Assembly: GCA_947086655.1 (NCBI GenBank)
Contig: CAMTZM010000003.1
Span: 1 to 64,000 of the forward strand
Length of the DNA: 64,000 nt
Direction: 5' to 3'
DNA from: an uncultured Eubacteriaceae bacterium
GTDB taxonomy: Bacteria > Bacillota > Clostridia > Lachnospirales > CAG-274
Below the pieces are notes generated by a model. That model ran no database searches. It saw only the letters and a program-made list of their open reading frames with translations, and was not told where the DNA came from. Both the position numbers and the translations under genes were made by a program. Below are positions 8,764 through 26,174 of the stretch, piece after piece. Numbering within the stretch: position 1 is the stretch's first letter; each line of letters begins with the position of its first letter.

Positions 8764-9447
8764 TTATTTTGTAATTGTCTCAAAGTTATTTAAAAATTCT
8801 CCTGTAAGAGGCATGCCATAGTATACATTATTTAAGTCCTCGGCTGTTTCAAGGCTTTTAATATAAGCCATAATGTGATTACAGTATGTAGTTTGAGATA
8901 TAATATACTCGGCTGCTTTGTTGGCTATTAAATTAAAATCGCTTATAGAAAAAAGAGTACACATTTCACCGTCAGCATGATAAGGAACTTTAGTTTCATT
9001 GTTTAAGTTGCCTATACTTATTTGAGAGGCAAGTCCATTTATATTTATTTGGTCTTCTAAAGTCAATGAAAAATGTTTTTTCTCACCATTTTCCAAATCT
9101 ACATCAATTCCGTTATAAATATGGTTTTTACATTCTTGTTTAATTTCGCTGATTTTTTTATCAATTAATTCATTAATTGTTGGTTCTAAAAGTTTCCTTG
9201 CCTCCTCATAGTCTGAAACAGCGAGTCCGTTATATTTTAAAATATTATCTGTATCAAGTTTATGGCATTCGTAATCCAAACTTTTTCTTTCAAGTTCCGA
9301 TATAAGTCCATTTAATTCCATATCGTCATATACATATTGTATAATATCTGAATTAGTTATCACCTTATTTGAAGTTGTCAAGTTTTTATATTTAACGACA
9401 TATTTGTTTATAATAATTATACCATTTTCAACATAATAATTTATCAT
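8764..9447 (-). CDS. DUF4376-type tail-fibre-associated protein
   Basis: A 227-residue protein. The C-terminal 110 residues match the DUF4376 pattern: a coiled-coil lead KISEIKQECKNHI, then IDVDLENGEKKHFSLTLEDQ, VPYHADGEMCTLF and a terminal helix. This domain is usually encoded next to phage tail fibres and is thought to aid fibre assembly or attachment. The N-terminal half (residues 1-90) is not recognisable. It is the last gene of the late operon, 17 bp after the fibre gene, with AAAAGGAGAAAAG before the ATG. Confidence 0.75.
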   Translation of the reverse strand: MINYYVENGIIIINKYVVKYKNLTTSNKVITNSDIIQYVYDDMELNGLISELERKSLDYECHKLDTDNILKYNGLAVSDYEEARKLLEPTINELIDKKISEIKQECKNHIYNGIDVDLENGEKKHFSLTLEDQININGLASQISIGNLNNETKVPYHADGEMCTLFSISDFNLIANKAAEYIISQTTYCNHIMAYIKSLETAEDLNNVYYGMPLTGEFLNNFETITK

Positions 9448-9464
9448 TTTTACTTTTCTCCTTT

Positions 9465-11591
9465 TTATAAAGATATTTCTGTTATTGTACTTTCGCTTAC
9501 AACATTTGCAGTTTCAACATTATCGTATGCATCCCAGCCTCTCCCAATAAATATTAGGTTTATTTCGCAGGATGTATCGGAACTTTGTGTAAAATAAACG
9601 TCTATATACTGGTCTGGTGTTCCGTATTTTGTAACTAATCTTATTTTAGTTATGCAGTCGTTAAAAGAGGAGTGGGTAATTTTTGTTATTTTATTATTTC
9701 CGGAGCTTGAACTGTATTGCTGTGCTGCTGAAAATACGGTAGTGCTGTTTTTGCCGAAAACTCCTCCGTGCATAATAAAAATACCTCCGCAGGCGTCTCC
9801 TTTGCTATGTATGATTCTATACCAATTACCGGCTGTTGGAGTAAGTGACAGTATTTTATTAAATCCCAATTCGGAACAGCCTAAGTACAGTTTTTTCCAG
9901 TCGTTATCAATACGTCTTTTAAATATATATTCTGTATCTCCATCTGGTATAAACATTTGAAAAGGAGTTCCTACGGTATTATTTACATATAAAGCGCCGT
10001 GATGTGATGCTGGATTATTTGTTCCGACTGTTGTTTTTATATTATATATACCTGTATTAGTAAGATTATTCCAATTAACATTTGATGTAATATTAGATGT
10101 ACTTACAAAATCGCTTGCGTGTTTATTGTCTACTGTATCGGCGTTTCCTCCGTTTGCCGGGAAACTTTCTGGTAAATTTGTTATTTGGCTTATAGTATGT
10201 GTATGTTCTTTATTGGCTTTGCCGTCAGCTAAATCGTATGCTTTTTTTAAAGAGTTAGCAGTTGCCGCCATAGTTTTGCTTGTGCTTGAGGTACTGTCTG
10301 TAAGCTGTACAATACCTTTATATTCTGTTGATGCTTGAATAAGCTGAGGGTTTAATATTTTAAGATATGTACCATCCCATACAACTGTATAAATTCCGTT
10401 ATTTCTAACCCAAAGGTTACTAATTGGAATAGTTGTAAAACCTGAACTTGATATTGATGGAAAATAAATATTTTTAGCTCCTAAATTATTTATATTAAGG
10501 GTACTTTCATTTGTGTCTCCATATGTATGCGCTTTAATATTAAGAGGTATATTTTTTACATCATTCCAGCTTTGAACTCCTTCTATGCTGACTGTTCTTA
10601 TTGTTGTAGAAGCTGATGTTTCAGAAAATACGGTTGTAGAGAGTTTACTTTTTAATGCTGTTTTGTTTATATTTTCCACATTTTCGGCAGCTGCAAAATA
10701 TTCAGGAGGCTTACCGTCTAAAGTGTTTGCATTTCCATAATCAGATATATTATTCCATTCGCTCCATTTTCCATTTTTAGCTGCTCTTATATACATTTTA
10801 GCTTGTGAGAAAGGCATTGCTATTTGAGTGCCTGAGCCGTTATTATATGGGAAAAACATAATATGCCAATAATTTGAGTCAGATTTATTTGTTTCAGGTA
10901 CAACATTTTCTGAATTAGTAAATGTAATATAAGCTTTTTCAAAACCGGCGTTATTTAAGTCTTCATCTGTAAAATAAACTCCTGATGTAACAAAACTGTT
11001 GTAGTTTTTTCCGTTAAGTTTGTTAGAATCCCAAGCATACTCTGAATAACTTACAGTTACTTTTCCTTCATTTCCTATTTTCAAATCGTCTAAATCTGTT
11101 ATATCGCTTTTCAGATGATTATGTCTGCTTTTACATAGAGAATCTGAATTGTGTACAGTCCATTGCGGATTTGGGGCATAATCCTCATCGCTTTCAAATT
11201 CGGTTTTAACATTAAGTGTGCTGTTTACAAATATTATATCGTTTTCATCGGCGTATAGTGTTATATACTCATAAATAGTATTTTTTTCAATTTTATAGGA
11301 ATTACTAAGTAAATGAAGACCTGTTTTATCATCATCTGGAATTTTAAAAGCGCATGGATATTCACATTCAAAAGCCTCTTTTAAATTATTAAATATTTTA
11401 TATTCCAAAAAATCATTTGCGTGTTTTCCATCTAATGTATCAGCATTTCCGCCGTCTTTATTTTTAGCTATTGTATCAATTTCCTTCATATTTTGGTCTA
11501 TAATATCAAAATTACTGTTAAATACGTCAACATTATAAAAATCTTCTTGTGAATCTTTTCTAAGTCCATAATTTTGGGTGAGTTCAGCCAT
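9465..11591 (-). CDS. Tail fibre protein with pyocin-knob-like modules
   Basis: A 708-residue fibre. The N-terminus (NYGLRKDSQEDFYNVDVFNSNFDIID) is the usual baseplate-attachment start of Firmicutes fibres. The motif GNADTLDGKHA(N/S)DF recurs near residues 48, 290 and 480. Two knob-like modules with TSGVYFT..W and NTGIYNI..DWKKLYL lie near residues 205-285 and 510-570. The C-terminal 120 residues form a distinct receptor-binding-type tip. It should determine which cells the particle binds. It begins right after the xkdU-like gene. No chaperone-type self-cleaving tail is obvious. Confidence 0.85.
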   Translation of the reverse strand: MAELTQNYGLRKDSQEDFYNVDVFNSNFDIIDQNMKEIDTIAKNKDGGNADTLDGKHANDFLEYKIFNNLKEAFECEYPCAFKIPDDDKTGLHLLSNSYKIEKNTIYEYITLYADENDIIFVNSTLNVKTEFESDEDYAPNPQWTVHNSDSLCKSRHNHLKSDITDLDDLKIGNEGKVTVSYSEYAWDSNKLNGKNYNSFVTSGVYFTDEDLNNAGFEKAYITFTNSENVVPETNKSDSNYWHIMFFPYNNGSGTQIAMPFSQAKMYIRAAKNGKWSEWNNISDYGNANTLDGKPPEYFAAAENVENINKTALKSKLSTTVFSETSASTTIRTVSIEGVQSWNDVKNIPLNIKAHTYGDTNESTLNINNLGAKNIYFPSISSSGFTTIPISNLWVRNNGIYTVVWDGTYLKILNPQLIQASTEYKGIVQLTDSTSSTSKTMAATANSLKKAYDLADGKANKEHTHTISQITNLPESFPANGGNADTVDNKHASDFVSTSNITSNVNWNNLTNTGIYNIKTTVGTNNPASHHGALYVNNTVGTPFQMFIPDGDTEYIFKRRIDNDWKKLYLGCSELGFNKILSLTPTAGNWYRIIHSKGDACGGIFIMHGGVFGKNSTTVFSAAQQYSSSSGNNKITKITHSSFNDCITKIRLVTKYGTPDQYIDVYFTQSSDTSCEINLIFIGRGWDAYDNVETANVVSESTITEISL

Positions 11592-12128
11592 TTAAAAACC
11601 CCTTTCAATCAAATCATTTTGAATACTTAAATGAGAAAAATTTTTTAATTTTGAATGTTTCAAAGGTTTAAAAAACTCATGTATATTTTTAAAAACAATA
11701 TTTATAACCATATTAGCTGGAATCATTTTATCAAGTATTTCCTTAACTTCACTTAAAGCCGTATTATCCATATTTAAAAGTCTTACATAAATCATATAAT
11801 CGTTATGTTTTACAAATAAGAAAAAGTTATCTTTTCCGCACACTATACAAAGCTGTTTTGAAAGGTTAATTATAGTATAAGGCAATTTATCGGTTATTCT
11901 TATATAGAGAGCAATTCTTCTTTGTTCAATATTTTTTTTGCCTTTTTTTAGTCCCATTATTTTTTCATATCTTTGTACGCTTTCTTCTCCGGCATAAAGT
12001 ACATATTGGTCTAAAAAAGCTTGATTAATTTGAGTTTTAAGTTTATCAATAAAAAAATCTTCAGCATCAAAAAGTTTTTTAAATTCCTCAATATTTTGTA
12101 AAAATTCCGGAAGGTATTCTATAAGCAA
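11592..12128 (-). CDS. Baseplate protein, XkdU/YmfQ-like (DUF2313)
   Basis: A 178-residue protein with the DUF2313 layout: an N-terminal helix LLIEYLPEFLQNIEEFKKLF, a central R-rich turn YEKIMGLK..EQRRIALYIR near residue 65, and an (I/V)VCGKDNFFLFVKHNDYMIYVRL strand segment. This family forms part of the contractile-tail baseplate wedge next to baseplate J. It starts one base after the J gene ends and is followed immediately by the fibre. Length is normal for the family. Confidence 0.8.
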   Translation of the reverse strand: MLIEYLPEFLQNIEEFKKLFDAEDFFIDKLKTQINQAFLDQYVLYAGEESVQRYEKIMGLKKGKKNIEQRRIALYIRITDKLPYTIINLSKQLCIVCGKDNFFLFVKHNDYMIYVRLLNMDNTALSEVKEILDKMIPANMVINIVFKNIHEFFKPLKHSKLKNFSHLSIQNDLIERGF

Positions 12129-12129
12129 A

Positions 12130-13215
12130 TTAATTCACCTCAACTTTGTAGTTATTTATAATTAATTCTTTCATCACTGGAATATAGTCAATATCAAGTA
12201 TTAAATTATCAAATGAGTCAGAATTATTAATTATAATAGAGGATATAGCTTTAATGCCGTTAATATTAAATATATTTGTTCCTATACGCATAGCTATAAT
12301 TTCTGTATTTTCAGAATCAGCCCATTTAGCAGCTAATTCTTTCATATAATCATTTATTTCATTAATAACATATTCTGAAATATCTTCTAATTCATAACCA
12401 TTTTCGTATGTAAGTTCAATATTTACATTAATGTCATATTCTCTTACTCCAACAACTGTTACCTTATGTCCGATAGGAGCGAATCCGTCTCCGTTTCCTG
12501 TTGTTTTTTCAGGGTCAGTTATTTCTTTCACTTCTTTTATAAATTCTTCAGAAGGTGTTGTATAACCACTTGATATAATAATAATTTTAACAGTGCCGCC
12601 GCCGTTAAAAACCGGTATAATTTTACAGCCGCCCACTCCATTTATAGAGTTAATTTTTTCAATGTAATCTTTTTTATTACCTCCAAAAGCAAGGGAGTTA
12701 AAGCTGTCAAAATATCTTTGTCTAAAGTTTTCGGTAGTTTCCTCGTCTTCACCGGTTATTATAACATCTGTTATAACAGCGTATGTAAGCCCCTCTATAT
12801 TATCAAGCGGAAGTAAATTTCCAAACGCTCTATGTCCGGCTGTTCCTTTTGTTTCGCATACAAGTTTATAGCAGCCGTTTTCTATTTTTTCGTCTGCAGA
12901 AAATATAAGGTTATTAATTGAAAACCTTGAGCCAATAGGAATATTTATATTAAAAACACCTTTCATAACGGCATAAGAGGATTGTTTTGGGCTGAGACCT
13001 CTTTCAGCGGCTCGTTTAATAAGGTATTCTCTTCCGGCGGTATCGGCAAAAGTTTGATTAAGGAGGTTATCAAGTGAAATATACATTTGCGCAAGTTCTG
13101 CACAAGCGGGAGCAAGAGCGTCATAAATGACGCTTCCCTGTCTTTTGTCAACATTTGAAGGAACTAATGACAATGCTTTTTTAATTATTGATTCAAATGT
13201 TTGTTCTTCATACAT
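12130..13215 (-). CDS. xkdT: Baseplate J-like protein, XkdT
   Basis: A 361-residue baseplate J/gp47-type protein. The start MYEEQTFESI at 13215 is chosen because its ATG overlaps the preceding stop (TAATG) and GGGAGG lies about 10 nt upstream. Hallmarks are VDKRQGSVIYDALAPACAELAQMY near residue 20, AAERGLSP near 70, FNINIPIGSRFSI near 90, GTAGHRAFGNLLPLDNIEGL near 130 and ETTENFRQRYFDS near 165. It forms the wedge that triggers sheath contraction. It lies between the xkdS-like and xkdU-like genes, as in PBSX. Confidence 0.9.
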   Translation of the reverse strand: MYEEQTFESIIKKALSLVPSNVDKRQGSVIYDALAPACAELAQMYISLDNLLNQTFADTAGREYLIKRAAERGLSPKQSSYAVMKGVFNINIPIGSRFSINNLIFSADEKIENGCYKLVCETKGTAGHRAFGNLLPLDNIEGLTYAVITDVIITGEDEETTENFRQRYFDSFNSLAFGGNKKDYIEKINSINGVGGCKIIPVFNGGGTVKIIIISSGYTTPSEEFIKEVKEITDPEKTTGNGDGFAPIGHKVTVVGVREYDINVNIELTYENGYELEDISEYVINEINDYMKELAAKWADSENTEIIAMRIGTNIFNINGIKAISSIIINNSDSFDNLILDIDYIPVMKELIINNYKVEVN

Positions 13216-13625
13216 TAAATATTTACCTCCCATTCAAATTCTTCTGTACCAAAAATGGAGCGCACGTTAAATTTAACTTCAAGTGCGTTTTTATCTATAT
13301 ATGAGTCTGAAAAAACGAAATTATAAACATCTTTTATTCTGTCGTCAACGCTTAGAGCGTCTTTTATTCTGTTTGGAATTTCAGCTTTTACAAGTTCACG
13401 GCTTTTTCCTATAAGGTCGTTAAGTTCTACGCCGTAATTAAAATCATATATTTCATAAGCGTATCTGTCAGTCATAAGAGTTTTATATACAGTTTGTTTT
13501 ATACTTTCAATTCCATTAATATAATCTTCTATTTTATCTTTTTCATTTTTAATTTTATAAGTAAATGAAGGTCTTGTTTCAATTTCAAGTTCAGAGTTAA
13601 ATTTATTGCTTTTAATAGGAATCAT
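13215..13625 (-). CDS. xkdS: Tail lysozyme-fold/wedge protein, XkdS (DUF2634)
   Basis: A 136-residue DUF2634 protein. Seen are FTYKI near residue 20, VYKTLMTDRYAYEIYDFNYGVEL near 45, LIGKSRELVKAEIPNRIKDAL near 70 and a C-terminal beta segment. It corresponds to the gp25-type baseplate wedge component. Its stop overlaps the start of the baseplate J gene. In PBSX an xkdR (DUF2577) gene lies between xkdQ and xkdS; here only a 42-bp gap separates them, so xkdR is absent. Confidence 0.8.
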   Translation of the reverse strand: MIPIKSNKFNSELEIETRPSFTYKIKNEKDKIEDYINGIESIKQTVYKTLMTDRYAYEIYDFNYGVELNDLIGKSRELVKAEIPNRIKDALSVDDRIKDVYNFVFSDSYIDKNALEVKFNVRSIFGTEEFEWEVNI

Positions 13626-13667: not shown

Positions 13668-14678
13668 TTAGTAATATTTAAAAGTTCCATTATACACCTC
13701 GCTAAATGTAAGTTCTAAAATATGTTCGTTATCAGAAAAGCGATGTATGCAGTTTTCAGTAAGAAGCATGCTGTCTACGCTAAGTTCGGCAAGATTATTT
13801 ATTTTTATATATACAGTACTTCCGCCTCGTATATCAATTTCTCCGTTATCTGTACCCATACATATAATGTTAAGTTTTTTTCTTTCACGGCATTTTTGAG
13901 ACAATATTTCTTCAGCAAGCAATTTTGCTTGTTTAGAGTTATAATCGGAATTAATTCTTTTAAAATATTGCAAAACACCCCATTTTTTTTGTGCCTGTGA
14001 ATTTTCGGCAACAGTAATACTGTCAATTTTAGTTTTTTTATTTTTTCTCCAAAGTTTTACTTTGTTATATGTATCGCTGTCAATTTCCGTTTTATAGTTA
14101 TAATCTATCATTGATGTAGTGTCGGCTAACAAAAGCGGCATAACAAGGTTTTTAACATCTCTTACGCATAGTTTTCCGGCGTCGTCATATACAGTATAAT
14201 TTTTTGCGTTATTTTGTTTTGTAATATCAAGGCAGCTTAAAATAATTTGAATTAATGATTTTCCCTGAAAGTTTTGTTTATTAATAATAAATGCTGTATC
14301 GTCTATAATTCCGGTTTCTATTTTATAATCGGTACAGATTTTTTTTATAACATCAGATGCTTTTTTATAGTATACATAATAGTTATCTTTATTTTTAAGA
14401 TACCTTAATTGGTCATAGCACATAACGGAAATAATTTGGTTTTTATCTCTTTCTTTTGAAAAAACATAACCATGAAAAATAAATTTGTCATTATATTTAA
14501 GCCATACAGAGTCTCCCTCAAAAAAAGAAAATTCTTTAATTGAATTAAAAGGTTTTGCCACATTAAATTTTAATACAGATGCTTCGTTAATTGTTCTTTG
14601 AAGTATAACTTCACCTATACAAACATCACTGACGTCAAAAATATTTTCATTGTATTCAATATAAATTTTAATTTCCAT
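13668..14678 (-). CDS. xkdQ: Tail hub protein, XkdQ-like
   Basis: A 336-residue phage late-control-D/hub family protein. Family features are the N-terminal ANEASVLKFNV-like strand (INEASVLKFNVAKPF, residue 30), FHGYVFSKERDK near 70, VMCYDQLRYLKNKDNYVY near 85 and a second beta domain with ADTTSMIDYNYKTEIDSDTYNKVKLW near 185. It forms the central trimeric hub under the tube, above the spike. Length is close to PBSX XkdQ (about 330). It is preceded by a 217-bp gap that contains the inverted-repeat element. Confidence 0.85.
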   Translation of the reverse strand: MEIKIYIEYNENIFDVSDVCIGEVILQRTINEASVLKFNVAKPFNSIKEFSFFEGDSVWLKYNDKFIFHGYVFSKERDKNQIISVMCYDQLRYLKNKDNYYVYYKKASDVIKKICTDYKIETGIIDDTAFIINKQNFQGKSLIQIILSCLDITKQNNAKNYTVYDDAGKLCVRDVKNLVMPLLLADTTSMIDYNYKTEIDSDTYNKVKLWRKNKKTKIDSITVAENSQAQKKWGVLQYFKRINSDYNSKQAKLLAEEILSQKCRERKKLNIICMGTDNGEIDIRGGSTVYIKINNLAELSVDSMLLTENCIHRFSDNEHILELTFSEVYNGTFKYY

Positions 14679-14895: not shown

Positions 14896-15555
14896 TTAAG
14901 GCAGTAAAAGAGTTGTTCCGACACTAATAACATCGGGGTTATCAATACCGTTAAGTTTAGCGATTTCATTATATTTTGAGCCGTCATTAAGTTCTTTTCT
15001 TGCTATTTTCCATAAAGAATCGCCTTTTCTAACAACATAAGTTTTTTTGTTTTCCTTTGAGGTTCTTATTTTTTCGGAAAATGCTTTATCATTTGATACA
15101 TCTACTTTTTTTATTTCGGGACACCTATATTCCATAAGTGTTAAATCAATCCAAAATTCACCTTCTTCTCCGGCATATTCAGTAATAGAATAATCTTCAA
15201 CAGATACAAGAGTATTTGTTTTAAATATTTCCGAATTATCCGAAGCGTTTCTAAGTATTATAAATCTTACAGGTGTTTTGCCTTCTTTAAATAGTCTTAG
15301 TCTGTTAAGGTAATAAAGCGGTTCAAAAATAATCCCTAATGTATTAAAAGCAGGGGAGTCTTTTTTTGGAAGAATTGCTTTAAATTTATAAAGTCTAAGA
15401 GGTGCGCTTTTCAAAATAGATGTATCTCCGGAGCTTATAAGGTTAATTACCTTAGAATTACCTTTATAGCTTGTTTCAAGACTTTCAGGAGCTACCGGAA
15501 GATTAATTCGGCTTGTTTCGTCTTTATCATAACAAAGAGTAAAATAATACATCAT
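14896..15555 (-). CDS. xkdP: LysM-domain tail protein, XkdP-like
   Basis: A 219-residue protein with an N-terminal tail domain (residues 1-150) containing INLPVAPESLETSYKGNSKVINLISSGDTSIL, and a C-terminal LysM (residues 170-219, TYVVRKGDSLWKIARKEL..LLLP). LysM binds peptidoglycan or closes the tube end; in PBSX-type tails XkdP sits with the hub. Its ATG overlaps the stop of the tape-measure gene (TAATG). Length is near the PBSX homologue (about 235 residues). Confidence 0.85.
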   Translation of the reverse strand: MMYYFTLCYDKDETSRINLPVAPESLETSYKGNSKVINLISSGDTSILKSAPLRLYKFKAILPKKDSPAFNTLGIIFEPLYYLNRLRLFKEGKTPVRFIILRNASDNSEIFKTNTLVSVEDYSITEYAGEEGEFWIDLTLMEYRCPEIKKVDVSNDKAFSEKIRTSKENKKTYVVRKGDSLWKIARKELNDGSKYNEIAKLNGIDNPDVISVGTTLLLP

Positions 15556-16857: not shown

Positions 16858-17322
16858 TTATTCTCCTATAACTTTATCAAATGAGTTTCTCACCTCAACG
16901 CCGTTAAATGTAAATTCTATTTCTTCGTCAAGTTCTGTTGAGTCAATATCGATTTTGGCAATATCTACTGTATTAATGTTAACTTGTTTTAAAATAACAG
17001 TTTGTCTGCCTATTTCGCTTGATGGGTCTTCATTTTCAATAAGCATTTCAAAATATGTATCTACGCTTTCGTCAATATATTTAACCATCATTTCTCTAAA
17101 TTTTGATGTACAATAATACATTTTCATTGAGCCTGTACCCCTCCAGCCAGTTGCTTTATGTTTAGCACCTGTTTGCCCGAGCACTTTAATTTCTGATTTT
17201 GTTTTTTCAACTTTTGCTTTAATATTTTTAACATAAATCATATCTTCGACACTGCCGTTAATAGTTGCCACACATCTTCCGGTTGCTCCGTTAATGGCAT
17301 CCCATGCTTTAAGAGTTGACAT
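16858..17322 (-). CDS. xkdM: Tail tube protein, XkdM (DUF2001)
   Basis: A 154-residue tube protein. It begins STLKAWDAINGATGRCVATINGSVEDMIYVKNIKAKVEK and carries KVLGQTGAKHKATGWRGTGSMKMYYC near residue 50, typical of the DUF2001 family, then a beta-rich C-terminus ending EIEFTFNGVEV. It polymerises into the rigid inner tube inside the sheath. It lies 23 bp after the sheath gene. Length is as in PBSX XkdM (about 148). Confidence 0.9.
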   Translation of the reverse strand: MSTLKAWDAINGATGRCVATINGSVEDMIYVKNIKAKVEKTKSEIKVLGQTGAKHKATGWRGTGSMKMYYCTSKFREMMVKYIDESVDTYFEMLIENEDPSSEIGRQTVILKQVNINTVDIAKIDIDSTELDEEIEFTFNGVEVRNSFDKVIGE

Positions 17323-17345: not shown

Positions 17346-18656
17346 TTATTCAACAACGCAAGTCATATAAAGCTTGTCCATAGCTCCTACGGGTTCAACA
17401 AATTCGCTGACAATTACATCGCCTTTTTCAGTACCTTTTTCGACTGTAATATTTGTTGGGTCAAAATTGGTAATAGCTTCTATTGCCTGTAATGTTTCAT
17501 GATATTTAACAAGTTCAGTTTTAAATATATCCCTTCCAACAGAGTTATTTTGCTGTTTGCCTAAATAATAGTCGTTAAAAATCCTTGCCGTATCGTTTGC
17601 GATTGCGTCAAGCACACGAATTACTTGATTATTTGAAAAGTCGGAATTTTTATCGCTTGAAAATTCGGTAAATGAATTAATATCTTTAAGTACACGGCAG
17701 CCTTTTTTATCGTTATAGAATACAAATTCACCGTTTTTAACAATATTTTTAAGCTGGCTTTTTTTATAATTTCCGTTAAATTCAAGTTCGCCGTCATACA
17801 AAGCGTTTGTAAGGCTTTCATTAACTTCAGCGCCTGCTGTTTTTCCGGCAACCCAATAAACGGCGTTTTTTGTATTTTTAACGCTTATAATACCTTCATG
17901 GTTTGCCTGAGGATAATCATATAATACACAAGATATTTTATAGCCCTCATCGTCTCTAAGCCTTTTTGTAAAGCTTGTAAAAAGGGCTTTTGTTGTATTA
18001 TCTTCACCGGCATAGCATATTGTTGTAAAGTCATAAGCCTCTATTTTATCAAGAAACTCTGAATAATCAGAGCCTTTTGCGCTTAATTCGCTGCCTCCTG
18101 ACAAATTAGTTCCTAAAGAAACGGCAGGTTTTCCCTGTCCGTTAAATGAAACAAAGTCGTTATTTATAAGTTCATTAAAATTAGATATACTTTGTTCATC
18201 AACGCTTGTAGTATTAGTATCTACAATTGTTTTAACAATAAAGTTTCCTTCTGTGTCTATATCGTTTTCAATAACAATTTTTATATCGTTTCCTCTTGTG
18301 CCGGGGTTAATTGCCGTAACGGTAAGGGCATTATCTCCTGTGCCTATAACAGCAGATGCTTTTGTACCGCTTGATATTCTGTAAACAAGAGCCTCATTTG
18401 CACCTATAAAAATTTCTCTTAAAAATTGCATTTCGTCTGAGTTGTAGTTATAGCCGAAAATACTAAAGCAATTTTTCTGAAAATCCTCAAGGCTCACTCT
18501 TACGACTTCGCCTGTTTTTCCCCAGCCGCCTTCATAAGCTACGGCTACTATTCCTCTTTCTCCTAAGTTTCCAAGCGCTCTTGCTTTTGATACAAAATTA
18601 ATATAAGCGCCCGGCAATACTTTATTTTGTGTAGTAAAAGTTCCTCCTGCTGCCAT
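17346..18656 (-). CDS. xkdK: Tail sheath protein, XkdK
   Basis: A 436-residue contractile sheath subunit. It opens GGTFTTQNKVLPGAYINFVSKA, has GERGIVAVAYEGGWG near residue 35, and the C-terminal sheath domain with SFTEFSSDKNSDFSNNQVIRVLDAIANDTARIF near 330 and the final VSEFVEPVGAMDKLYMTCVVE strand used for handshake contacts. Its presence shows this is a contractile (myovirus-like) tail. The ATG overlaps the stop of the small upstream gene (TAATG). Length is close to PBSX XkdK (466). Confidence 0.93.
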   Translation of the reverse strand: MAAGGTFTTQNKVLPGAYINFVSKARALGNLGERGIVAVAYEGGWGKTGEVVRVSLEDFQKNCFSIFGYNYNSDEMQFLREIFIGANEALVYRISSGTKASAVIGTGDNALTVTAINPGTRGNDIKIVIENDIDTEGNFIVKTIVDTNTTSVDEQSISNFNELINNDFVSFNGQGKPAVSLGTNLSGGSELSAKGSDYSEFLDKIEAYDFTTICYAGEDNTTKALFTSFTKRLRDDEGYKISCVLYDYPQANHEGIISVKNTKNAVYWVAGKTAGAEVNESLTNALYDGELEFNGNYKKSQLKNIVKNGEFVFYNDKKGCRVLKDINSFTEFSSDKNSDFSNNQVIRVLDAIANDTARIFNDYYLGKQQNNSVGRDIFKTELVKYHETLQAIEAITNFDPTNITVEKGTEKGDVIVSEFVEPVGAMDKLYMTCVVE

Positions 18657-18821: not shown

Positions 18822-19280
18822 TTAATGTCCTCCCATAATTAATCTTTCCATATAAATTGGTTCTTTGTCGTCAATAACATGAAAATCATAGCTTACAAAA
18901 AAGTTAAGTACACAATCTCCGTTTTCATAAGTACTGTTAAGTCCGCTTGTCAATACACCTCCGCTTTTTTTCATAGACATATTGCGGCCTTTAACTTTAT
19001 GTCCGTCAATTTCTATTTCATTAAGAGCGGAAGATAGTTTTTCATACATATCATTCATATTAAAGTTTTTTTTGTTTAATGGAGGAAAATATAAAATGTC
19101 AATAGGGTTAATAAGTCTTCTTCTTTTGCCTAAAGCCTGTTTTATACTTGCCTCAGATGCTTTTATAAAAAAGCATGGTTCATTAAAGCCTTGTTTTACT
19201 TCGTCTGTATAGATAACTATATTTTCCCCGAAATAGAGGGTTAAATTTTTAGCTACTGCCTGTACAATTTTTTCTGTCAT
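18822..19280 (-). CDS. Tail terminator / tail completion protein, XkdI-position
   Basis: A 152-residue protein beginning MTEKIVQAVAKNLTLYFGENIVIYTDEVKQGFNEPCFFIK, the standard opening of the phage tail-terminator family in Firmicutes. It ends in a beta strand FFVSYDFHVI. I place the start at 19280, where CGCCTCC on the plus strand (GGAGGCG) lies 7 nt before the ATG; an upstream in-frame start at 19298 would bury that site. It joins head and tail or caps the tube. It has a 1-bp gap to the next small gene. Confidence 0.75.
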   Translation of the reverse strand: MTEKIVQAVAKNLTLYFGENIVIYTDEVKQGFNEPCFFIKASEASIKQALGKRRRLINPIDILYFPPLNKKNFNMNDMYEKLSSALNEIEIDGHKVKGRNMSMKKSGGVLTSGLNSTYENGDCVLNFFVSYDFHVIDDKEPIYMERLIMGGH

Positions 19281-19321
19281 AGAAATACGCCTCCACAATT
19301 TTAATTAACAAGCGTCTTTTA

Positions 19322-19675
19322 TCATGCGAAGCTATCAAAAAGGCTTAAAATAATTTCCTGATGAGTATTATAAAAAGCACTTTCACCGCTTTTCTGATAA
19401 ACCTTTGTTTCCCCGCATTGAGTAACTTCAATTTTAGAGCCGGATTTTATAGGCTTATCACAATAAGTAATAAGTTTAATTTCCTGCCTTATAAAAGAGG
19501 CGCTTTTACCTTGAACTGCTGAATTAAGGCTTTTATATGACAATCTGCATGAAACATCTTTATATACAAGCTTTTCTTTAAATTCAGTAATTCCTGTTTC
19601 TTTATTTATAAAAGGAATAAATTCATAAACGTTCATTTTTCCCGTAAAAAGCTTTTCTATATCATTTTTAATCAA
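19322..19675 (-). CDS. Head-closure protein, XkdH-like
   Basis: A 117-residue protein in the XkdH/DUF3599 position. It has a short helix then a beta-barrel body: NVYEFIPFINKETGITEFKEKLVYKDVSCRLSYKS, a loop with SASFIRQEIKLITYCDKPIKSGSKI, and a C-terminal EIILSLFDSF. I propose a TTG start at 19675, since GGAG lies 8 nt upstream; the earlier in-frame GTG at 19696 overlaps the previous gene. It likely seals the portal and connects head to tail. Confidence 0.65.
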   Translation of the reverse strand: MIKNDIEKLFTGKMNVYEFIPFINKETGITEFKEKLVYKDVSCRLSYKSLNSAVQGKSASFIRQEIKLITYCDKPIKSGSKIEVTQCGETKVYQKSGESAFYNTHQEIILSLFDSFA

Positions 19676-19689
19676 TATATGCGCTCCTT

Positions 19690-20076
19690 TCACCACACAA
19701 TAGCTCTATGGGCAATAATTTCGTCATTTCCGCATGTCATTAGTTTTTGTATAAGCAAGTCTTCATAACTTCCTTTTGACTGACAAGTTGAAGTATCATA
19801 TATAACGGAAACATCACCTTCTTTTAGTTCTTTTAGTGCACCGTTATCACATGCTGCTATACTAAAATCGCTGTCTATTCGCTTTTTTATAAATAAGAAT
19901 CCTCCTGCTGCTCTGTCAATTAAAATACCTTTAAGTACTTTTGGCACGCAATCAACTCCGATAGACTGGCATATATAGCATTGCACTCTTTCTATTTCCA
20001 TTTCTATAAGCGGATAATCTTTTGAAGAAACGTCATAACCTATGTTTTTTATTCTTTTTATAACCTCATCACGCAT
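19690..20076 (-). CDS. Head-tail connector (YqbG/gp6-like)
   Basis: A 128-residue helical protein between the capsid and head-closure genes. The N-terminal region IKRIKNIGYDVSSKDYPLIEMEIERVQCYICQSIGVDCVP resembles the DUF3199/gp6-type adaptor, and LKGILIDRAAGGFLFIKKR follows. The adaptor ring sits directly under the portal. It lies 5 bp after the capsid gene and overlaps nothing. Family assignment rests on position and helical pattern more than on a sharp motif. Confidence 0.65.
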   Translation of the reverse strand: MRDEVIKRIKNIGYDVSSKDYPLIEMEIERVQCYICQSIGVDCVPKVLKGILIDRAAGGFLFIKKRIDSDFSIAACDNGALKELKEGDVSVIYDTSTCQSKGSYEDLLIQKLMTCGNDEIIAHRAIVW

Positions 20077-20081: not shown

Positions 20082-21134
20082 TTAACCTCTTGATATAATT
20101 CTTGCTATACTTATAGCCTTATGGTCAATATATTCTTTTTTAGAGCCGCTTTCACCGTTATTTACGAGTTCCCAGTTACTTCCGTCCATAAGTTCATCAT
20201 TTGTAGGCGAAAGAGTTTGTTGATTTTTCTTTACATAAGAAATTCCAAAAGGAGCAAAACATTTTCTTGTTCTTACATATAATGTATCTTCGCCGCCGTT
20301 TGTTTTTGGGTCTCGGCTCATTTCAAAAGGCACTTTTGCACCTATATCCTCATAATCTATGGAGCCTTTTCCTAAAATATATGTAGTATAAACAGCTTTT
20401 CCGTCAGAACCTATTTCAGTAGGCATACTATCGTCTATAAGAACTGTTCTTCCATTCCATGTAGCTAAGGCAAGGTCTCTTTGTATACCATATTTATCTG
20501 TTTGTTTTAAATAAGACAAAAGGTTTATATTTTCAAGGTTTGTTGCCACAGCGGAGTGCATAATAGCGGCTGTATAATTGTTTTTATTGTCACCTGAAGC
20601 TTTTTGTATAGCCGTATTAAGTGTTGTTGGACCTACTAAGCTGTCGTCTCCTGTTTCAGAAGATATATCAAAAGTATGTTCATCTACGAATTTAAGATTT
20701 TCAGTTCCTGTCATATTAAAAATACCGTTTAAAATTGCAAGCAGTGTATTTTGGTCAACTTCGTCAATGTAATCACTTACTTGAAGAGCGACGTTATCCA
20801 TAAATCTTGCGCCGCCTGTAACGTCGTATGCGAAGTCGCTTTCAAGCCATGCCTTAGCACGGCCGATTACAACAGCACCTCTTTCAAATGTTTGAGTAGT
20901 ATCGGCTGTTATGTCTGTTTGTCCGTCGTAATTAAGTACTTCTCCGCCTATTCTTCCATACATAGGCAAAATAGCGTAAGCAGCTCCGGTATTTTGGCTG
21001 AACGCTCCTTTTATTTCAGAGTTTCCTTTAAAAATTCCTGAGCGAATCAGTTCATTTTTTTTTGTTTTTGGAAGCACGTCTATATACGCTCCAAAGGCTG
21101 AAGGGTTAAAAGTCTTACTATTAAATTTACTCAT
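20082..21134 (-). CDS. xkdG: Major capsid protein
   Basis: A 350-residue capsid protein of the PBSX XkdG/encapsulated HK97-like type. It carries NPSAFGAYIDVLPKTKKNELIRSGIFKGNSEI near the N-terminus, GRAKAWLESDFAYDVTGGARFMDNVA near residue 95, IMHSAVATNLENINLLSYLKQTDKYGI near 190 and the C-terminal YVRTRKCFAPFGISYVKK. It forms the icosahedral shell. It follows the scaffold gene, with AAAGGAGAAA before the ATG. An intact capsid gene argues against a headless tailocin. Confidence 0.9.
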   Translation of the reverse strand: MSKFNSKTFNPSAFGAYIDVLPKTKKNELIRSGIFKGNSEIKGAFSQNTGAAYAILPMYGRIGGEVLNYDGQTDITADTTQTFERGAVVIGRAKAWLESDFAYDVTGGARFMDNVALQVSDYIDEVDQNTLLAILNGIFNMTGTENLKFVDEHTFDISSETGDDSLVGPTTLNTAIQKASGDNKNNYTAAIMHSAVATNLENINLLSYLKQTDKYGIQRDLALATWNGRTVLIDDSMPTEIGSDGKAVYTTYILGKGSIDYEDIGAKVPFEMSRDPKTNGGEDTLYVRTRKCFAPFGISYVKKNQQTLSPTNDELMDGSNWELVNNGESGSKKEYIDHKAISIARIISRG

Positions 21135-21605: not shown

Positions 21606-23033
21606 TTAATTTTTCAAATTAAGTATTTGAGGGTTTTGAGATTTTTTATTTTTTTCATATTGTTCGTCAAGTCTTTTTAATTCAGCGGTTATATCTTTAA
21701 CCCATGGATGTTGTTCAATTATGCTTTTTTGCGACAATATTTCAGTTGATTTTATACAATTTTCAATACTTTCCGTTTCATTAATAAGTATATCTCTGTT
21801 AAAAACAATATCTGCCTTACAGTTAGGAAATGTATTTTGTCTTATTTTTATGAATGTTCCTATTAGTTCTATTATTTTGCTTATAGACCATTGAAATTCA
21901 CATTCCATAATGTTTGCGTCAAGGTCGATATCGCTGTAAACAGATTGTATATTCATTCTTGTAACATTGCCTGTAAGTCTGTCGTCTTTTGAGTCGATTC
22001 CCCTTGCATTTTCCATAATGCTTCTTTTAAGCATATCCGCTATAATTTTATAATTACCGCTGTCTACATTAACTTTAAGTGTTTGTATATCTCCGGCAGC
22101 GCCGTCTATACTCTTTACTTTAACAGCGCCGTATTTTGCGAGATTACATCTAAACTCCTCAAGGTTTGTACCATCATAATTTTTCAATACAAGTATTGTG
22201 TTTCTTGCATCTTCCTGCATGTTATTCATAAAATCGCTCTCAATAATATTGAGAGAATCCTGAAGTTTTTTAACTCTTGAAATAAGCGGTATTTCTTTTG
22301 AGTTAAGTTTAAAAGGAATAACAGGTACATAATTTAGATTAAAAACATTGCCCAATGTATCGGAAAGGTAATATTCACTTTCCTCAAAAACAAGAGAGGT
22401 ATTTTTAATAAAATACCTCTCAATGCCTTTATCAGTATAAATTTCTGCTTTTTCCTTAATAATTTCCCTATCGCCCTCATAAACCGACACATAAAAAAGT
22501 CTTACTATACAATCAAGTTCTCTATGTTCGCTGTCCTTATAGAAAGGAATAATGTTATAAGGCTCAAACCTTTTAAATTTAAAGTCAACTCCGTTTTTGG
22601 TATATATATAAATATATCCGCTGCCGCAGTTTAAACAATCTTCTCCAGTATCTTTTAAAATTCTGAAAAAGTCATTATTAAAAATACTATTAAGCAATTC
22701 TAAAAGTTCAGTATTTTCGCATTTAATTGTAAAAGGTTTTGATAAAAGATAGCTGCATTTTTGGTCAACAAGTCTTGCGTATTGATTATCAACGATTTTA
22801 TTGTTAGGAAGATTTGACACTTCCGACAAATTTCCATCTTTTCCTATAACTGTGCGCTTTCTTTCGAGAATATCATGTATACCCTTATAATATCTGTCTC
22901 CGTCAATCATAGTTTTTCTTTTTTTACTTGTTTTAAATTTAAGTATTTCCTTTTCAATAACCTGCAATCGGGTTAATGAATTAGATTTAATAATTTCGTT
23001 TATTCTTTGGGTTTCGCTTCCTGCAAAAATCAA
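21606..23033 (-). CDS. xkdE: Portal protein (SPP1 gp6 / XkdE type)
   Basis: A 475-residue portal. Family motifs are the N-terminal helix NEIIKSNSLTRLQVIEKEILKFKTSKKRKTMIDGDRYYKGIHDIL, NNKIVDNQYARLVDQKCSYLLSKPFT near residue 90, IIPFYKDSEHRELDCIVR near 170 and the crown region NARGIDSKDDRLTGNVTRMNIQSVYSDIDLDAN near 355. It begins with TTG (GGGAG 9 nt upstream). It forms the 12-mer DNA gate for the terminase. No Mu gpF-like minor head gene follows, which many relatives have. Confidence 0.88.
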   Translation of the reverse strand: MIFAGSETQRINEIIKSNSLTRLQVIEKEILKFKTSKKRKTMIDGDRYYKGIHDILERKRTVIGKDGNLSEVSNLPNNKIVDNQYARLVDQKCSYLLSKPFTIKCENTELLELLNSIFNNDFFRILKDTGEDCLNCGSGYIYIYTKNGVDFKFKRFEPYNIIPFYKDSEHRELDCIVRLFYVSVYEGDREIIKEKAEIYTDKGIERYFIKNTSLVFEESEYYLSDTLGNVFNLNYVPVIPFKLNSKEIPLISRVKKLQDSLNIIESDFMNNMQEDARNTILVLKNYDGTNLEEFRCNLAKYGAVKVKSIDGAAGDIQTLKVNVDSGNYKIIADMLKRSIMENARGIDSKDDRLTGNVTRMNIQSVYSDIDLDANIMECEFQWSISKIIELIGTFIKIRQNTFPNCKADIVFNRDILINETESIENCIKSTEILSQKSIIEQHPWVKDITAELKRLDEQYEKNKKSQNPQILNLKN

Positions 23034-23051: not shown

Positions 23052-24296
23052 TTAATTAAAGCTGAATGTATCGCCTTTAATAAAATCCTCAAGGGCATAT
23101 CGCATAGCGTCAAGAAGGTGGTTAAAACTGTCAATAGGCTGATTGATAAGTTTACCGAAATTATTTTTTTCCCATGTGTAGTTATTAATTTCTGTAATAA
23201 AGTTTACACATTTAGGATGAATAATAATTTTAAAACCCTGAATATATTGAATACCGTTTAACACACTGTCTTTTCCTTTTCTTGCTGCTCGTATATTACA
23301 AAGACCGAGTTGTCTAAGTTCTTCAATAGACTTAGGTTCAGCGCTGTCGGCTTTAATTTTTTCTTTAGCGAATTTCATATTTACGATGCGTTTATAAATC
23401 ATTTCATTTGTAAGCGCTTTTTCGTAAAGTTCATCGAATACAAAAATTTCTTTGTTAATACAATCGACGATACCGGCGAAAAAAGCGGTAGGGTCGTTTG
23501 TATATCCGAAGTCAAGTCCGAATGCGGTTTTAACAGATTTTCTTTTAAGTATAAAATCAACGGAAAATTCTTTTTCTTCAAAGTTTTCATAGATAAGTCC
23601 GTCTGATATGCCCCATTCTCCGAGTCCGGCTACTCTGTATCTTTTAGGATTATGAAGTTTCATTTGTTCAAATACTTTTTTATCTGCATCATCAAGAAAT
23701 TCGTTAATCATATAGTTAGTAGTTTTTGCTAAAACGTCCGAATTTTTGACATCAAAAAAACGCCTTTTTATCCAATGGCGTTCATTCCAAGGGTTTAAAG
23801 TAAGAGTAATTTGTTTAAAAAGACCCTCAGGCACTTCACCCCTAATTGATTCATCAAGTATATTGAAATCGTCTTCGTTTGAAATTTCATAAGCTTCTTC
23901 AATCCAAAGCCAGCAAAGAACTCCTTTTTCTACTGTAATTGAAGTAATTTTCAAACCGTCGTCAAGTCCTCTAAAGTATATTTTTTGTCCGGTAGGTTTA
24001 TAAGTCATTTCAAGAGGCGAGCGTTTACATTCCCATTTATCTTTTACATTAAGCCTTTCAATAGCCCAAAGCAGTTCTGTATAACAGCTGTCTTTAATAG
24101 TTGAAAATACTTTTCTTACAACAAGAGTGTTTGCGTCTTTGTATTTCATCATTCTAAAAATTATATTAATAGCCGTAGTTTTGCTTTTTTTGCTTGCTCG
24201 TGAGCCTTTGCATATTCTGTAACGACCTTTAAAGTTACAGAAGTCTGAATATCCTTTTCCTATAATTTCCTGCAAAGAAATTATTTTTTTATTCAT
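23052..24296 (-). CDS. xtmB: Terminase large subunit (PBSX XtmB family)
   Basis: A 414-residue packaging motor. The ATPase part has a degenerate Walker A KGSRASKKSKTTA near residue 32, common in this family, and Walker B LCWLWIEEAYEI near 130, followed by LTLNPWNERHWIKRRFF near 165. The RNase H-like nuclease has FGLDFGYTNDPTAFF near 258, KADSAEPKS near 310 and a final FNHLLDAMRYALED near 400. All key acidic residues are present, so it looks active. The start at 24296 is preferred because AAAGGAC lies about 8 nt upstream; it overlaps the TerS remnant by 8 bases. Confidence 0.92.
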   Translation of the reverse strand: MNKKIISLQEIIGKGYSDFCNFKGRYRICKGSRASKKSKTTAINIIFRMMKYKDANTLVVRKVFSTIKDSCYTELLWAIERLNVKDKWECKRSPLEMTYKPTGQKIYFRGLDDGLKITSITVEKGVLCWLWIEEAYEISNEDDFNILDESIRGEVPEGLFKQITLTLNPWNERHWIKRRFFDVKNSDVLAKTTNYMINEFLDDADKKVFEQMKLHNPKRYRVAGLGEWGISDGLIYENFEEKEFSVDFILKRKSVKTAFGLDFGYTNDPTAFFAGIVDCINKEIFVFDELYEKALTNEMIYKRIVNMKFAKEKIKADSAEPKSIEELRQLGLCNIRAARKGKDSVLNGIQYIQGFKIIIHPKCVNFITEINNYTWEKNNFGKLINQPIDSFNHLLDAMRYALEDFIKGDTFSFN

Positions 24297-24474
24297 TAAC
24301 ATCGTCCTTTATAACAACAGGATAGTCTTTCTGTTCCTTTTCATCAACGTATGTATATTTTCTTGCAAGAAGTTCTGCTGCTTTCATTCTGTCTTTAATT
24401 GAAATTTCTTCCCCCTCCCCCCTCATAACCTGTGTAAGATAAGCCATAACCTCCTTTGCTGAAGCTACTTTCAT
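24289..24474 (-). CDS. Terminase small subunit remnant, lacking the DNA-binding domain
   Basis: A 61-residue protein (MKVASAKEVMAYLTQVMRGE..SIKDRMKAAELLARKYTYVDE..PVVIKDD) matching only the C-terminal half of Terminase_2-type small subunits. The usual N-terminal helix-turn-helix of about 80-100 residues is missing. AAGGAGGTG lies 9 nt before the ATG at 24474, and a promoter-like TATAAT lies about 37 bp upstream of that, so the short form appears to be the real product rather than a frameshifted tail of a longer gene. It overlaps the TerL gene. It may keep oligomerisation or TerL contact without sequence-specific pac recognition. Confidence 0.75.
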   Translation of the reverse strand: MKVASAKEVMAYLTQVMRGEGEEISIKDRMKAAELLARKYTYVDEKEQKDYPVVIKDDVNE

Positions 24475-24510
24475 ATTAATAAGCACCTCCTTCTTTTTTA
24501 ACTCATTTAT

Positions 24511-24570
24511 ATTATAACACCAAAGTTAGTGACATGGTGTGTCTTAAAGTGTCTTTTAATGTCATAATAA
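24511..24570 (-). promoter_or_regulatory. Late promoter with 10-bp-phased upstream repeats
   Basis: On the minus strand TATAAT occupies 24516-24511, about 37 bp before the TerS start. No -35 hexamer lies 17 bp away (CACCAT). Instead GTC blocks on the plus strand start at 24541, 24551 and 24561 (TGTGTCTT, AGTGTCTT, AATGTCAT), exactly one helical turn apart. This resembles an activator-dependent phage late promoter. Confidence 0.6.
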
Positions 24571-24887: not shown

Positions 24888-25373
24888 TTATTTAGAAGAT
24901 AATTTAAGTTTTTTATCGCTAAAGCTGCTTTCAGCTTGACTTCCGAATTTTTCAATAGCTCTATCATGAATTCTAAAGCATTGTTTTCGGCTTTTATGTA
25001 TAATATCGGGTATATTGTCCCAGCTAAGTCCTTCTTTATATCTCAGTATAATTACTTTTTGTTCGTCGTTTTCGAGGGTACTCATAACGTAGTCTATAAT
25101 TGATTTTTCTTTAAGAGCGTTTTCTATTTCCTTTTCATATTCTTCCATTTGTTTTTCATAAATCATAATTGTTTTAATAACTGTATTTTCTACTCTTGAG
25201 GATATTTGTACGTTTGTTCTTATATAGTCGTAAGAAATTCCAACAGAGTATGAACTGTCGGCGCAAATTTTTTCAAGTTCCTTTATACGTATTGTAAGCT
25301 CTTTACAATAATCAACAACACCGCCCCAGCGTCTAAGCAAAGATTTTATATTTTCCTTTTCTCTTTTATTCAT
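24888..25373 (-). CDS. Sigma-region-4-like late activator (ArpU/Xpf type)
   Basis: A 161-residue protein. Its C-terminal HTH, LENDEQKVIILRYKEGLSWDNIPDIIHKSRKQCFRIHDRAI at about residues 100-140, is of the sigma-70 region 4 / ArpU / DUF1492 type. The N-terminal half is a predicted coiled coil. In PBSX the equivalent Xpf factor switches on the late operon. It is placed just upstream of the late promoter with phased repeats. The start at 25373 (GGTGG 8 nt upstream) overlaps the previous stop; an ATG five codons earlier at 25388 is the alternative. Confidence 0.78.
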   Translation of the reverse strand: MNKREKENIKSLLRRWGGVVDYCKELTIRIKELEKICADSSYSVGISYDYIRTNVQISSRVENTVIKTIMIYEKQMEEYEKEIENALKEKSIIDYVMSTLENDEQKVIILRYKEGLSWDNIPDIIHKSRKQCFRIHDRAIEKFGSQAESSFSDKKLKLSSK

Positions 25374-25650
25374 AAAGGATTCCACCATCCTTTATTTTAC
25401 TTTCGAGCTTTTTTTCTTCTATTTTGTATTCTTTAAGTTTACTTTCATAAATATTAATATTATGTTTTACATAGCAAAGCTGTTGGAGATTATCAAGATT
25501 AAGTGCTATTTTTTTTCGTTTTTCGTTAAGTTGTATTATTACATTATTGTCTGAGCGGCAGCCACATCGGCATTTAGATAGAATTTCTTTATCAGTGTCG
25601 AAAAGGCGTTTTTTTAGCGTTAAAATAGTAGTATCGATATCAATATCCAT
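25366..25650 (-). CDS. Early phage-element protein with a cysteine cluster
   Basis: A 94-residue protein of unknown family. It starts MDIDIDTTILTLKKRLFDTDKEIL, has an unusual SKCRCGCRSDNN segment near residue 25 with three closely spaced cysteines, and continues as a charged coiled coil. The start at 25650 fits GGAGG 8 nt upstream. It is the first gene of the leftward early operon and overlaps the activator gene by 8 bases. A role in regulation is only suggested by context. The cysteines could bind zinc. Confidence 0.6.
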   Translation of the reverse strand: MDIDIDTTILTLKKRLFDTDKEILSKCRCGCRSDNNVIIQLNEKRKKIALNLDNLQQLCYVKHNINIYESKLKEYKIEEKKLESKIKDGGILYE

Positions 25651-25677
25651 AAGCATATCCTCCATAAGAAATATTTT

Positions 25678-25695
25678 TGTTTCTTTTAAGAAACA
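25678..25695. promoter_or_regulatory. Operator-like palindrome
   Basis: TGTTTCTT-TT-AAGAAACA is a perfect 8+8 inverted repeat. It lies just downstream of the early promoter -10 box, where a bound repressor would block transcription. The divergent Xre gene is the obvious candidate regulator. Confidence 0.6.
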
Positions 25696-25706
25696 TATTT
25701 ATTTAC

Positions 25707-25735
25707 AGTATATATTTACTTGATTTTTTTGTCAA
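25707..25735 (-). promoter_or_regulatory. Early operon promoter
   Basis: On the minus strand TTGACA (25735-25730), a 17-bp spacer and TATACT (25712-25707). This near-consensus promoter reads towards the 25650 gene and the activator. Confidence 0.75.
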
Positions 25736-25775
25736 TTATTTTAGAGCAAAAAATCAATTTATCGACACATTTTTG

Positions 25776-25803
25776 TTTACAAAATGAAATAAAAATTTAT
25801 AAT
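25776..25803 (+). promoter_or_regulatory. Xre repressor promoter
   Basis: TTTACA (25776-25781), 16-bp spacer, TATAAT (25798-25803). The palindromic TTTTGTTTACAAAA overlaps the -35 and could be a second operator. Confidence 0.6.
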
Positions 25804-25847
25804 ATTATTAAAGGATAAATTAATTAATTGACTAAGGAGGTTATTTA

Positions 25848-26174
25848 ATGTATAGCTTTGGCACAAAAATACGTGATTTAAGGAGAGAAAGAAAGTTAAG
25901 TCAAGATGAGGTTGCTGTTGAGACGGGGATAACTAAATCAACAATATCTAAATACGAGCACAATCAAATAGACCCTACATTATCAGCGGCTAAAAAATTA
26001 GCTGATTTTTTTTCAGTAACTCTTGATTTTTTAGCTGATGATAACAACAAGCAGTCTGAATTTACGATACCGTCGAAATATGCAGTTGCTATAAGAAAAG
26101 CAATAAATGAAAATATAACAAGTGAACAATTGGAAGTAATTATAACAGTCATATCTGATATAAAAAATAATTAA
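25848..26174 (+). CDS. Xre-family repressor
   Basis: A 108-residue cI/Xre-type regulator. The HTH at residues 8-60 reads IRDLRRERKLSQDEVAVETGITKSTISKYEHNQIDPTLSAAKKLADFF, followed by a short C-terminal helix region without a LexA-like protease domain. It resembles the PBSX repressor Xre in size and divergent position. It probably holds the early promoter (25707-25735) off. A strong AAGGAGG precedes the ATG. Without a cleavable domain, induction would need another route, such as an anti-repressor or Lon/Clp-type turnover. Confidence 0.88.
   Translation: MYSFGTKIRDLRRERKLSQDEVAVETGITKSTISKYEHNQIDPTLSAAKKLADFFSVTLDFLADDNNKQSEFTIPSKYAVAIRKAINENITSEQLEVIITVISDIKNN

Follow-up and report, generated by a model that had tools for sequence, protein, structure and literature searches.

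The stretch of DNA considered here, hereafter the window, is the 64,000-nucleotide beginning of contig 3 (CAMTZM010000003.1) in the 2.79-Mb genome of an uncultured Eubacteriaceae bacterium (GCA_947086655.1; 96 contigs). The window carries an element of 23 genes (8185-26174), bordered directly by host genes, glgA (6684-8111) on the left and a PocR-MCP gene (26460-27464) on the right. Besides regulators, it has intact genes for packaging, head and contractile tail, arranged in the order of PBSX of Bacillus subtilis. We consider it on balance probable that this element is a domesticated cluster which descends from a PBSX-type contractile phage and would produce a particle resembling a gene transfer agent, its contractile tail being very short. 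Domestication itself, as far as sequence comparison can tell, is supported.

The host's family turned out to harbor two kinds of related cluster. In what follows, G denotes a genome (G000 being that of the window), L a locus, C a contig and g a genus. The family sample comprised 48 genomes, of which 41 gave matches, some of them weak, in a sheath search. Up to 20 kb was fetched around the main sheath matches and the genes were mapped, giving 58 tabulated family loci; 42 of these show both the interval between portal and scaffold and the interval before the tail terminator. In ordinary, long-kind prophages, the former interval holds a Mu-F-like protein (MuF) and the latter an HK97-gp10-like protein (gp10), both identified by Pfam on L126 and L133, and the tape measure, visible in 7 of the 10 loci, has 594-990 residues there. 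The minimal kind, which includes the window, has neither protein, a double absence that had not been named in the initial annotation of this DNA. Both genes are missing from 30 of the 42 loci and present in 10, while two loci have MuF only and none has gp10 only (joint loss, Fisher P 4e-8, ignoring relatedness). No tape measure reaches 500 residues in the 27 minimal loci that could be assessed, the longest match being 404 residues (L219). The scaffold of the minimal loci has 121-180 residues in 30 of 30, as against 193-270 in the 30 long-kind loci with a scaffold match (of 44, family and IMG/VR together). The 30 minimal loci represent 29 genomes and six further genomes show the cluster in partial view, bringing the number to 35 of 48. 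Outside the sample, we kept 80 of the 202 IMG/VR contigs with a related capsid. Of the 38 showing both intervals, 34 have both genes, two have MuF only and two (L017, L022) have neither; the last two nevertheless have tape measures of 634-699 residues and look like intermediates. At E 1e-60, 40 of the 48 family genomes contain a capsid relative, compared with 4 of 344 other genomes of the order; of these four loci outside the family three were fetched, all with gp10 and a tape measure of the long-kind type (cut by the contig end in L239).

The initial annotation had described the head, packaging and contractile-tail genes as intact and in order, and had preferred a domesticated particle to a random wreck. 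Both statements stand. Every named structural gene is present and all reading frames of the window's cluster are open. Its TerL is a member of the PBSX family (TIGR01547, above the cut-off), and in all 28 of the minimal-cluster TerLs aligned (only those longer than 380 residues, so that the broken TerL of L118 was left out) the Walker A and Walker B motifs and the three nuclease aspartates are intact. The ratio of nonsynonymous to synonymous substitution rates (dN/dS), a check that the initial annotation had proposed, was obtained from 11 pairs of close relatives, several of which have dS >1, and the ratios are rough. Among these relatives, the window's own genes being outside the pairs, dN/dS is low for TerL (0.024-0.127, 6 pairs), capsid (0.019-0.234, 11 pairs) and tube (0.017-0.085, 11 pairs), and at most 0.45 for other genes; every finite value lies below 0.46 save for the tape remnant, with 0.21 and 0.77 in the two pairs that gave a value. 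The measured pairs show purifying selection on the sheath, the tube, the sheath initiator and baseplate J. Such selection argues against decay, and a random wreck is unlikely in view of the open frames, the TerL motifs, the low dN/dS in close pairs and a gene set found in at least 29 of the 48 genomes.

Also in agreement with the initial annotation, integrase, lysis and replication genes and att repeats were not found. Searches by tblastn with eight recombinase seeds (six integrases and one serine recombinase from G000, one serine recombinase from a phage contig; E 1e-3) matched neither the window nor any of 30 related loci, a number of which are cut by contig ends. The longest repeat common to the intergenic flanks has only 12 bases, a length reached in 93 of 200 shuffles, and a wider repeat scan, judged by eye, revealed no att-like pair; hidden att sites or a hidden integrase were rejected on these grounds. 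Holins of relatives and one amidase, used as queries, had no match in the cluster, and a candidate holin remnant at 8440-8763 was rejected when tblastn gave none. Judged from gene maps only, the cluster has no replication genes. It thus lacks the integrase and lysis genes that stand beside the structural genes of an active temperate phage, and because no integrase was found and host genes lie directly on both sides, the element is unlikely to be a complete phage.

The coherent shortening of small terminase (TerS), scaffold and tape measure noted initially holds in part. Scaffold and tape measure are short across the family's minimal clusters, whereas loss of the N-terminal half of TerS is seen only in the window and the two IMG/VR contigs L017 and L022 (alignment, by eye). 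In the window, the match to the PHROG family is limited to the C-terminal part for TerS and the tape measure, and to the middle-to-C-terminal part for the scaffold; plausible ribosome-binding sites, judged by eye, precede all three genes. The final 50 residues of the tape measure resemble the end of a 926-residue prophage tape measure (L136; tblastn E 6.6e-8), and the remainder of the 250-residue remnant is rich in Asn, Asp and Glu. The tape measure is likewise reduced to its end in g6, and the same motif is found in G002 and G031, both of which were used as seeds. It is hardly recognizable in g10, and the minimal clusters of g3, g5, g7 and G009 gave neither a tape-measure match nor a convincing C-terminal motif. 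With the window's TerS remnant as the only query, g3 and g5 clusters and G002 showed no TerS match.

If the cluster is indeed a domesticated source of gene-transfer-agent-like particles, it might work as follows. The repressor and the late regulator would control it, and induction would start particle production. Capsids would assemble on the short scaffold, whose length is suggestive of a small head that could not package all of the element's own genes. The head and packaging modules are complete, and in relatives they are constrained, which makes packaging of DNA most likely; TerL would fill the capsids with host DNA, and its intactness together with the lost half of TerS could point only indirectly to random packaging. 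In RcGTA, gp1 (TerS) lacks the N-terminal DNA-binding domain, which was proposed to make packaging unspecific (PMC6854486); by the same token, the window's TerS without its DNA-reading half would not aim packaging at a pac site. As for the tail, a contractile stub is the simplest reading. The tape remnant would retain the tail-tip anchor and, by the tape-measure length rule of 0.15 nm per residue, its 250 residues would specify a very short contractile tail of <40 nm. Lysis would be supplied from elsewhere in the genome, and the particles would bind relatives by their fibers and deliver chromosomal DNA. The loss of MuF would suit delivery to kin, given that MuF proteins of family prophages can carry C-terminal toxin domains, as with PBECR2 in L133 and a deaminase in the C60 prophage of the window's genome. 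ComEC, the DNA-uptake route of RcGTA recipients, is present in 48 of 48 family genomes, which is permissive only. Tentatively, we also consider it possible that the contractile machine of such an agent can work with little or no tape measure: the g3, g5, g7 and G009 clusters have no tape-measure match, and yet sheath, tube, initiator and baseplate J are constrained in the measured pairs. In such a tail, either another ruler would set the length or the tail would be a stub of few rings.

Inheritance mostly with the host is supported for the family by tree comparison. A five-gene tree of the element and the host rpoB tree have 19 of 27 splits in common (30 genomes), compared with a mean of 0.24 and a maximum of 3 in 2000 label shuffles; single genes recover from 12 of 22 (TerL) to 17 of 23 (baseplate J) host splits, with 17 of 29 for the capsid. 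In 11 genomes compared for both kinds, five genes of the minimal cluster recover 6 of 8 host splits and those of prophages 1 of 8, a weak control, since several prophage loci lack some of the genes at contig ends. Neighboring genes are conserved within genera, each genus having its own: spoIVA adjoins the minimal cluster in five of the six g10 loci with that side visible (L117, L120, L143, L146, L222), and a protein of 882-913 residues lies beside four g5 loci. The window's genus is represented by one genome. The loss package, which comprises MuF, gp10, the ruler and a portion of the scaffold, may have arisen repeatedly within the family.

Several observations weigh against a domesticated, host-inherited agent. 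No minimal cluster is seen in 13 of the 48 family genomes, some of which are incomplete; patchy presence, which the initial annotation had named together with relaxed selection as a sign of simple decay, thus exists. In one relative, L118 (G021 C256), the terminase, portal, capsid and tape-measure frames are broken, by decay or by sequencing error. The dN/dS pairs do not include the window, which has no relative close enough to measure, and low values would also fit an active phage. By eye, the N-terminal half of TerS is kept in 16 of the 17 minimal clusters with a TerS match, so that a shortened TerS was rejected as a family trait and unspecific packaging is argued for the window only. The phylogenies are not uniformly favorable either. 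Sheath-only trees of the same 11 genomes recover 6 of 8 host splits for prophages and 5 of 8 for minimal clusters, and sheath and host distances correlate at r 0.66-0.76 for prophages versus 0.62 for the minimal kind; with prophage sheaths correlating equally well, distance correlation was dropped as proof of vertical descent. In a capsid tree of 61 sequences, with mosaics (L128, L196) and intermediates (L017, L022) labeled as long kind, the minimal kind is not one clade but requires six changes, at least three of them forced (shuffled mean 20.2). Multiple origins, or exchange with phages, must therefore be allowed for, and one single domestication is unsupported by this tree. Finally, the window's genome has an unlinked holin and endolysin that are closer to prophage ends than to the g7 element. 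At C6:1514-2634 (L235), near the contig start, a holin has a glucosaminidase, a CmpB-like membrane protein and feoAB as neighbors; it is 48-49% identical to that of the g7 element and 53-54% identical to holins at apparent prophage ends in G029, which have the same CmpB-like neighbor. This lysis pair is likelier a prophage remnant than a lysis locus in trans. Linked lysis genes do occur in relatives: a holin in two g7 loci (L139, L141) and, in G009, an amidase and a holin-like gene recognized by eye. Neither the C6 pair nor the 11-genome prophage control carries the main argument.

The main rival to the gene-transfer-agent-like reading is a headed killer like PBSX, which would package host DNA and act as a bacteriocin, its fibers choosing the victims and its sheath piercing them. 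It has in its favor the PBSX order and PBSX-family TerL, as well as the fibre genes of the window, g7 and G009, which differ between loci. In Bacillus pumilus, random host DNA and bacteriocin activity were found together in PBSX-like particles (PMC8347963). We nevertheless judge such a killer rather unlikely: six g10 loci (L120, L143, L145, L146, L148, L149) have no fiber gene after gp48, TerL and capsid rank with the most tightly constrained genes of the close pairs, and MuF, the site of toxin domains in prophages, has been lost. Furthermore, the tail is probably a stub, while tailocins retain long tails.

Two other explanations turn on the relationship with prophages. The clusters might be prophages in slow decay, repeatedly acquired and stripped within the family, which would account for a capsid tree that calls for several origins or exchanges, for the genomes without a minimal cluster, for the broken frames of L118 and for the rearranged gene order of the g3 and g5 minimal clusters. 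However, the uniformly low dN/dS outside the tape remnant, the TerL motifs and the fact that the same genes are missing and the same genes kept each time make this improbable. Still harder to credit is a helper-dependent defective phage, for which co-resident prophages would provide MuF, gp10, tape measure and lysis, the cluster being a parasite or a store of spare parts. There are candidate helpers: the family has long-kind prophages, in 11 compared genomes together with the minimal kind, and the window's genome has one on C60. Yet long-kind loci with a usable sheath were seen in 13 of 48 genomes as against 35 with the minimal kind, leaving most carriers without such a partner in these searches, and in all complete views two of the missing genes were lost at set places.

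PMC9662315 gives six features that define gene transfer agents. Three were examined and found here: the particle proteins come from tailed phages; the element appears fully endogenized, with flanking host genes and no integrase or att-like repeat found; and its phylogeny is mostly vertical and host-congruent, with the reservations about prophage sheaths and the capsid tree given above. The cluster would work like a gene transfer agent, as a candidate member of that class, and is best described as a domesticated headed particle. RcGTA of Rhodobacter capsulatus, an alphaproteobacterial agent of other phage ancestry with a non-contractile tail, likewise has a shortened TerS, without the N-terminal DNA-binding domain. 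It resembles the cluster also in having co-diversified with its hosts (PMC9662315). The nearest described system in spirit is FpGTA of Faecalibacterium, for which PMC12946183 describes a lineage-wide head operon whose TerS has no obvious DNA-binding domain, baseplate and lysis genes at a second locus, 40-nm heads with about 9 kb of DNA and a most likely podovirus-like nature. Compared by description only, FpGTA I/II and the cluster share the lineage-wide head operon, a reduced TerS, scaffold, capsid, the lack of replication genes and a probably short tail; FpGTA differs in its two loci with holin and endolysin and in belonging to Ruminococcaceae, whereas the window has a contractile tail set in one locus.

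The label 'PBSX-like' given initially suits the gene order and the TerL family but not the neck and tail length. Shared with PBSX are the TerL family, the XkdN-, LysM- and YqbQ-type tail genes, the chromosomal location and the head. The window differs in having no MuF and gp10 equivalents, half a TerS, no linked lysis gene and a tape measure of 250 residues versus the long XkdO of PBSX. PBSX packages random 13-kb pieces of host DNA (PMC8347963). The family's own long-kind prophages (L126, L136, L193, L201) have homologous structural genes but retain MuF, gp10 and long tape measures. R-type tailocins and diffocin have a distantly related sheath (CD1363, 8v3t, E 7.3e-12) and no head; with complete head and packaging modules in the window, a headless tailocin was rejected. 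The window's capsid matches 4an5/6r3a (E 2.3e-25) and its TerL nuclease 2wbn (E 8e-18), structures of the SPP1 type, a likeness limited to head and packaging parts. The capsid is also 56% identical to that of Clostridioides phage AR1075-1, a 41-kb record compared by its capsid only. Literature searches covering titles and abstract openings found no description of such a cluster.

Features of the element in the window, with positions, strand and supporting matches (aa, amino acids; HTH, helix-turn-helix)
Feature	Position	Strand	Evidence
Cro/C1-type HTH repressor, divergent from operon	25848..26174	+	HTH_3 E 1.6e-16; phrog_8
18-base near-palindrome between divergent units, possible operator (putative function)	25678..25695	.	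2 mismatches
99-aa protein, first gene of regulator unit	25366..25665	-	no convincing family
Sigma-region-4-like late regulator	24888..25388	-	phrog_36 E 6.9e-21; TIGR02937 E 1e-7, below its cut-off
Small terminase TerS without N-terminal half, 65 aa (61 from ATG)	24289..24486	-	phrog_51 positions 149-223 of 261, E 1.1e-4; alignment
Large terminase TerL	23052..24302	-	TIGR01547 180 bits, cut-off 105; motifs intact
Portal	21606..23033	-	PF05133 E 5e-78
Short scaffold, 122 aa	21157..21525	-	phrog_194 positions 106-215 of 335, E 7.3e-8
Major capsid protein	20082..21134	-	phrog_247 E 2.8e-87
Head-tail adaptor 1	19690..20076	-	phrog_132 E 9e-6
Head-tail adaptor 2	19322..19696	-	phrog_615 E 1.6e-28
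Tail terminator	18822..19298	-	PF20765 E 6.4e-28
Contractile sheath	17346..18656	-	phrog_279 E 4.4e-118
Tail tube	16858..17322	-	PF09393 E 2.8e-42
XkdN-like tail assembly chaperone	16464..16844	-	PF08890 E 1.3e-25
Tape-measure remnant, 250 aa: Asn/Asp/Glu-rich stretch and conserved C-terminal end of about 50 aa	15555..16307	-	phrog_1068 positions 662-705 of 706, E 7.2e-5; tblastn with 926-aa tape measure of L136, E 6.6e-8
XkdP-like LysM tail protein	14896..15555	-	phrog_380 E 1.9e-52; LysM
YqbQ/XkdQ-like tail protein	13668..14678	-	PF24032 E 4.2e-86
Sheath initiator	13215..13625	-	PF10934 E 1.8e-24
Baseplate J	12130..13233	-	PF04865 E 3.2e-49
Mu gp48-like baseplate protein	11592..12128	-	PF10076 E 9.4e-19
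Tail fiber	9465..11591	-	PF03406 E 1e-12
Second fiber or fiber-assembly protein	8764..9447	-	PF14301 E 2.4e-6; phrog_1348 E 1.7e-8
DUF6809 protein, probable last gene of element	8185..8439	-	PF20648 E 3.3e-7; 33% homologue in L141

The sigma-70-region-4-like regulator belongs to a two-gene unit (24888-25665). At the opposite end, the DUF6809 gene probably belongs to the element, because its homologue in L141 comes after fiber and holin. A search of the 64-kb window with the simple LexA-box pattern GAAC-N4-GTTC, which may not be the host's box, found no site. TerL and baseplate J have one match each in G000, and no second copy of either was found there. Elsewhere in this genome, C60 (L237) carries a separate long-kind prophage with part of a portal gene, MuF, a chaperone, a 967-residue tape measure and a capsid in unusual order, and the end of C46 (15924-16175, L238) carries, beside a serine recombinase, the C-terminal 84 residues of another sheath, which share 81% identity with that of the window. 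Among relatives, a conserved, apparently secreted protein of 826-913 residues accompanies the reordered g3 and g5 minimal clusters (L130, L131, L188, L189, L190, L191); that of L131 has a copper-amine-oxidase N-terminal domain. L115 and L154 (G039, G042) have gp10 and capsids that group with g10 minimal clusters, and their LysM and YqbQ genes lie before the scaffold, an arrangement possibly due to exchange with a domesticated cluster. On the IMG/VR contig of the intermediate L017, the neighboring protein at 2797-3819 is presumably IscB-like.

Detailed studies cover only a few gene transfer agents, and how to distinguish such agents by sequence from phages or dead prophages is still an unsolved problem (PMC12946183, PMC6854486). 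Here, both kinds of cluster occur in one family, separated by a fixed set of losses, which provides a test applicable to other genomes. If the loss package arose repeatedly, it would be a signature by which such particles could be found from sequence. If particles are made, Clostridia would have a short-tailed agent of the contractile type, and with it a natural experiment to show which parts of a phage, above all the tape measure, are dispensable for DNA transfer. For the family itself, the cluster would probably serve to transfer fragments of the host cells' DNA, or else to kill competitors.

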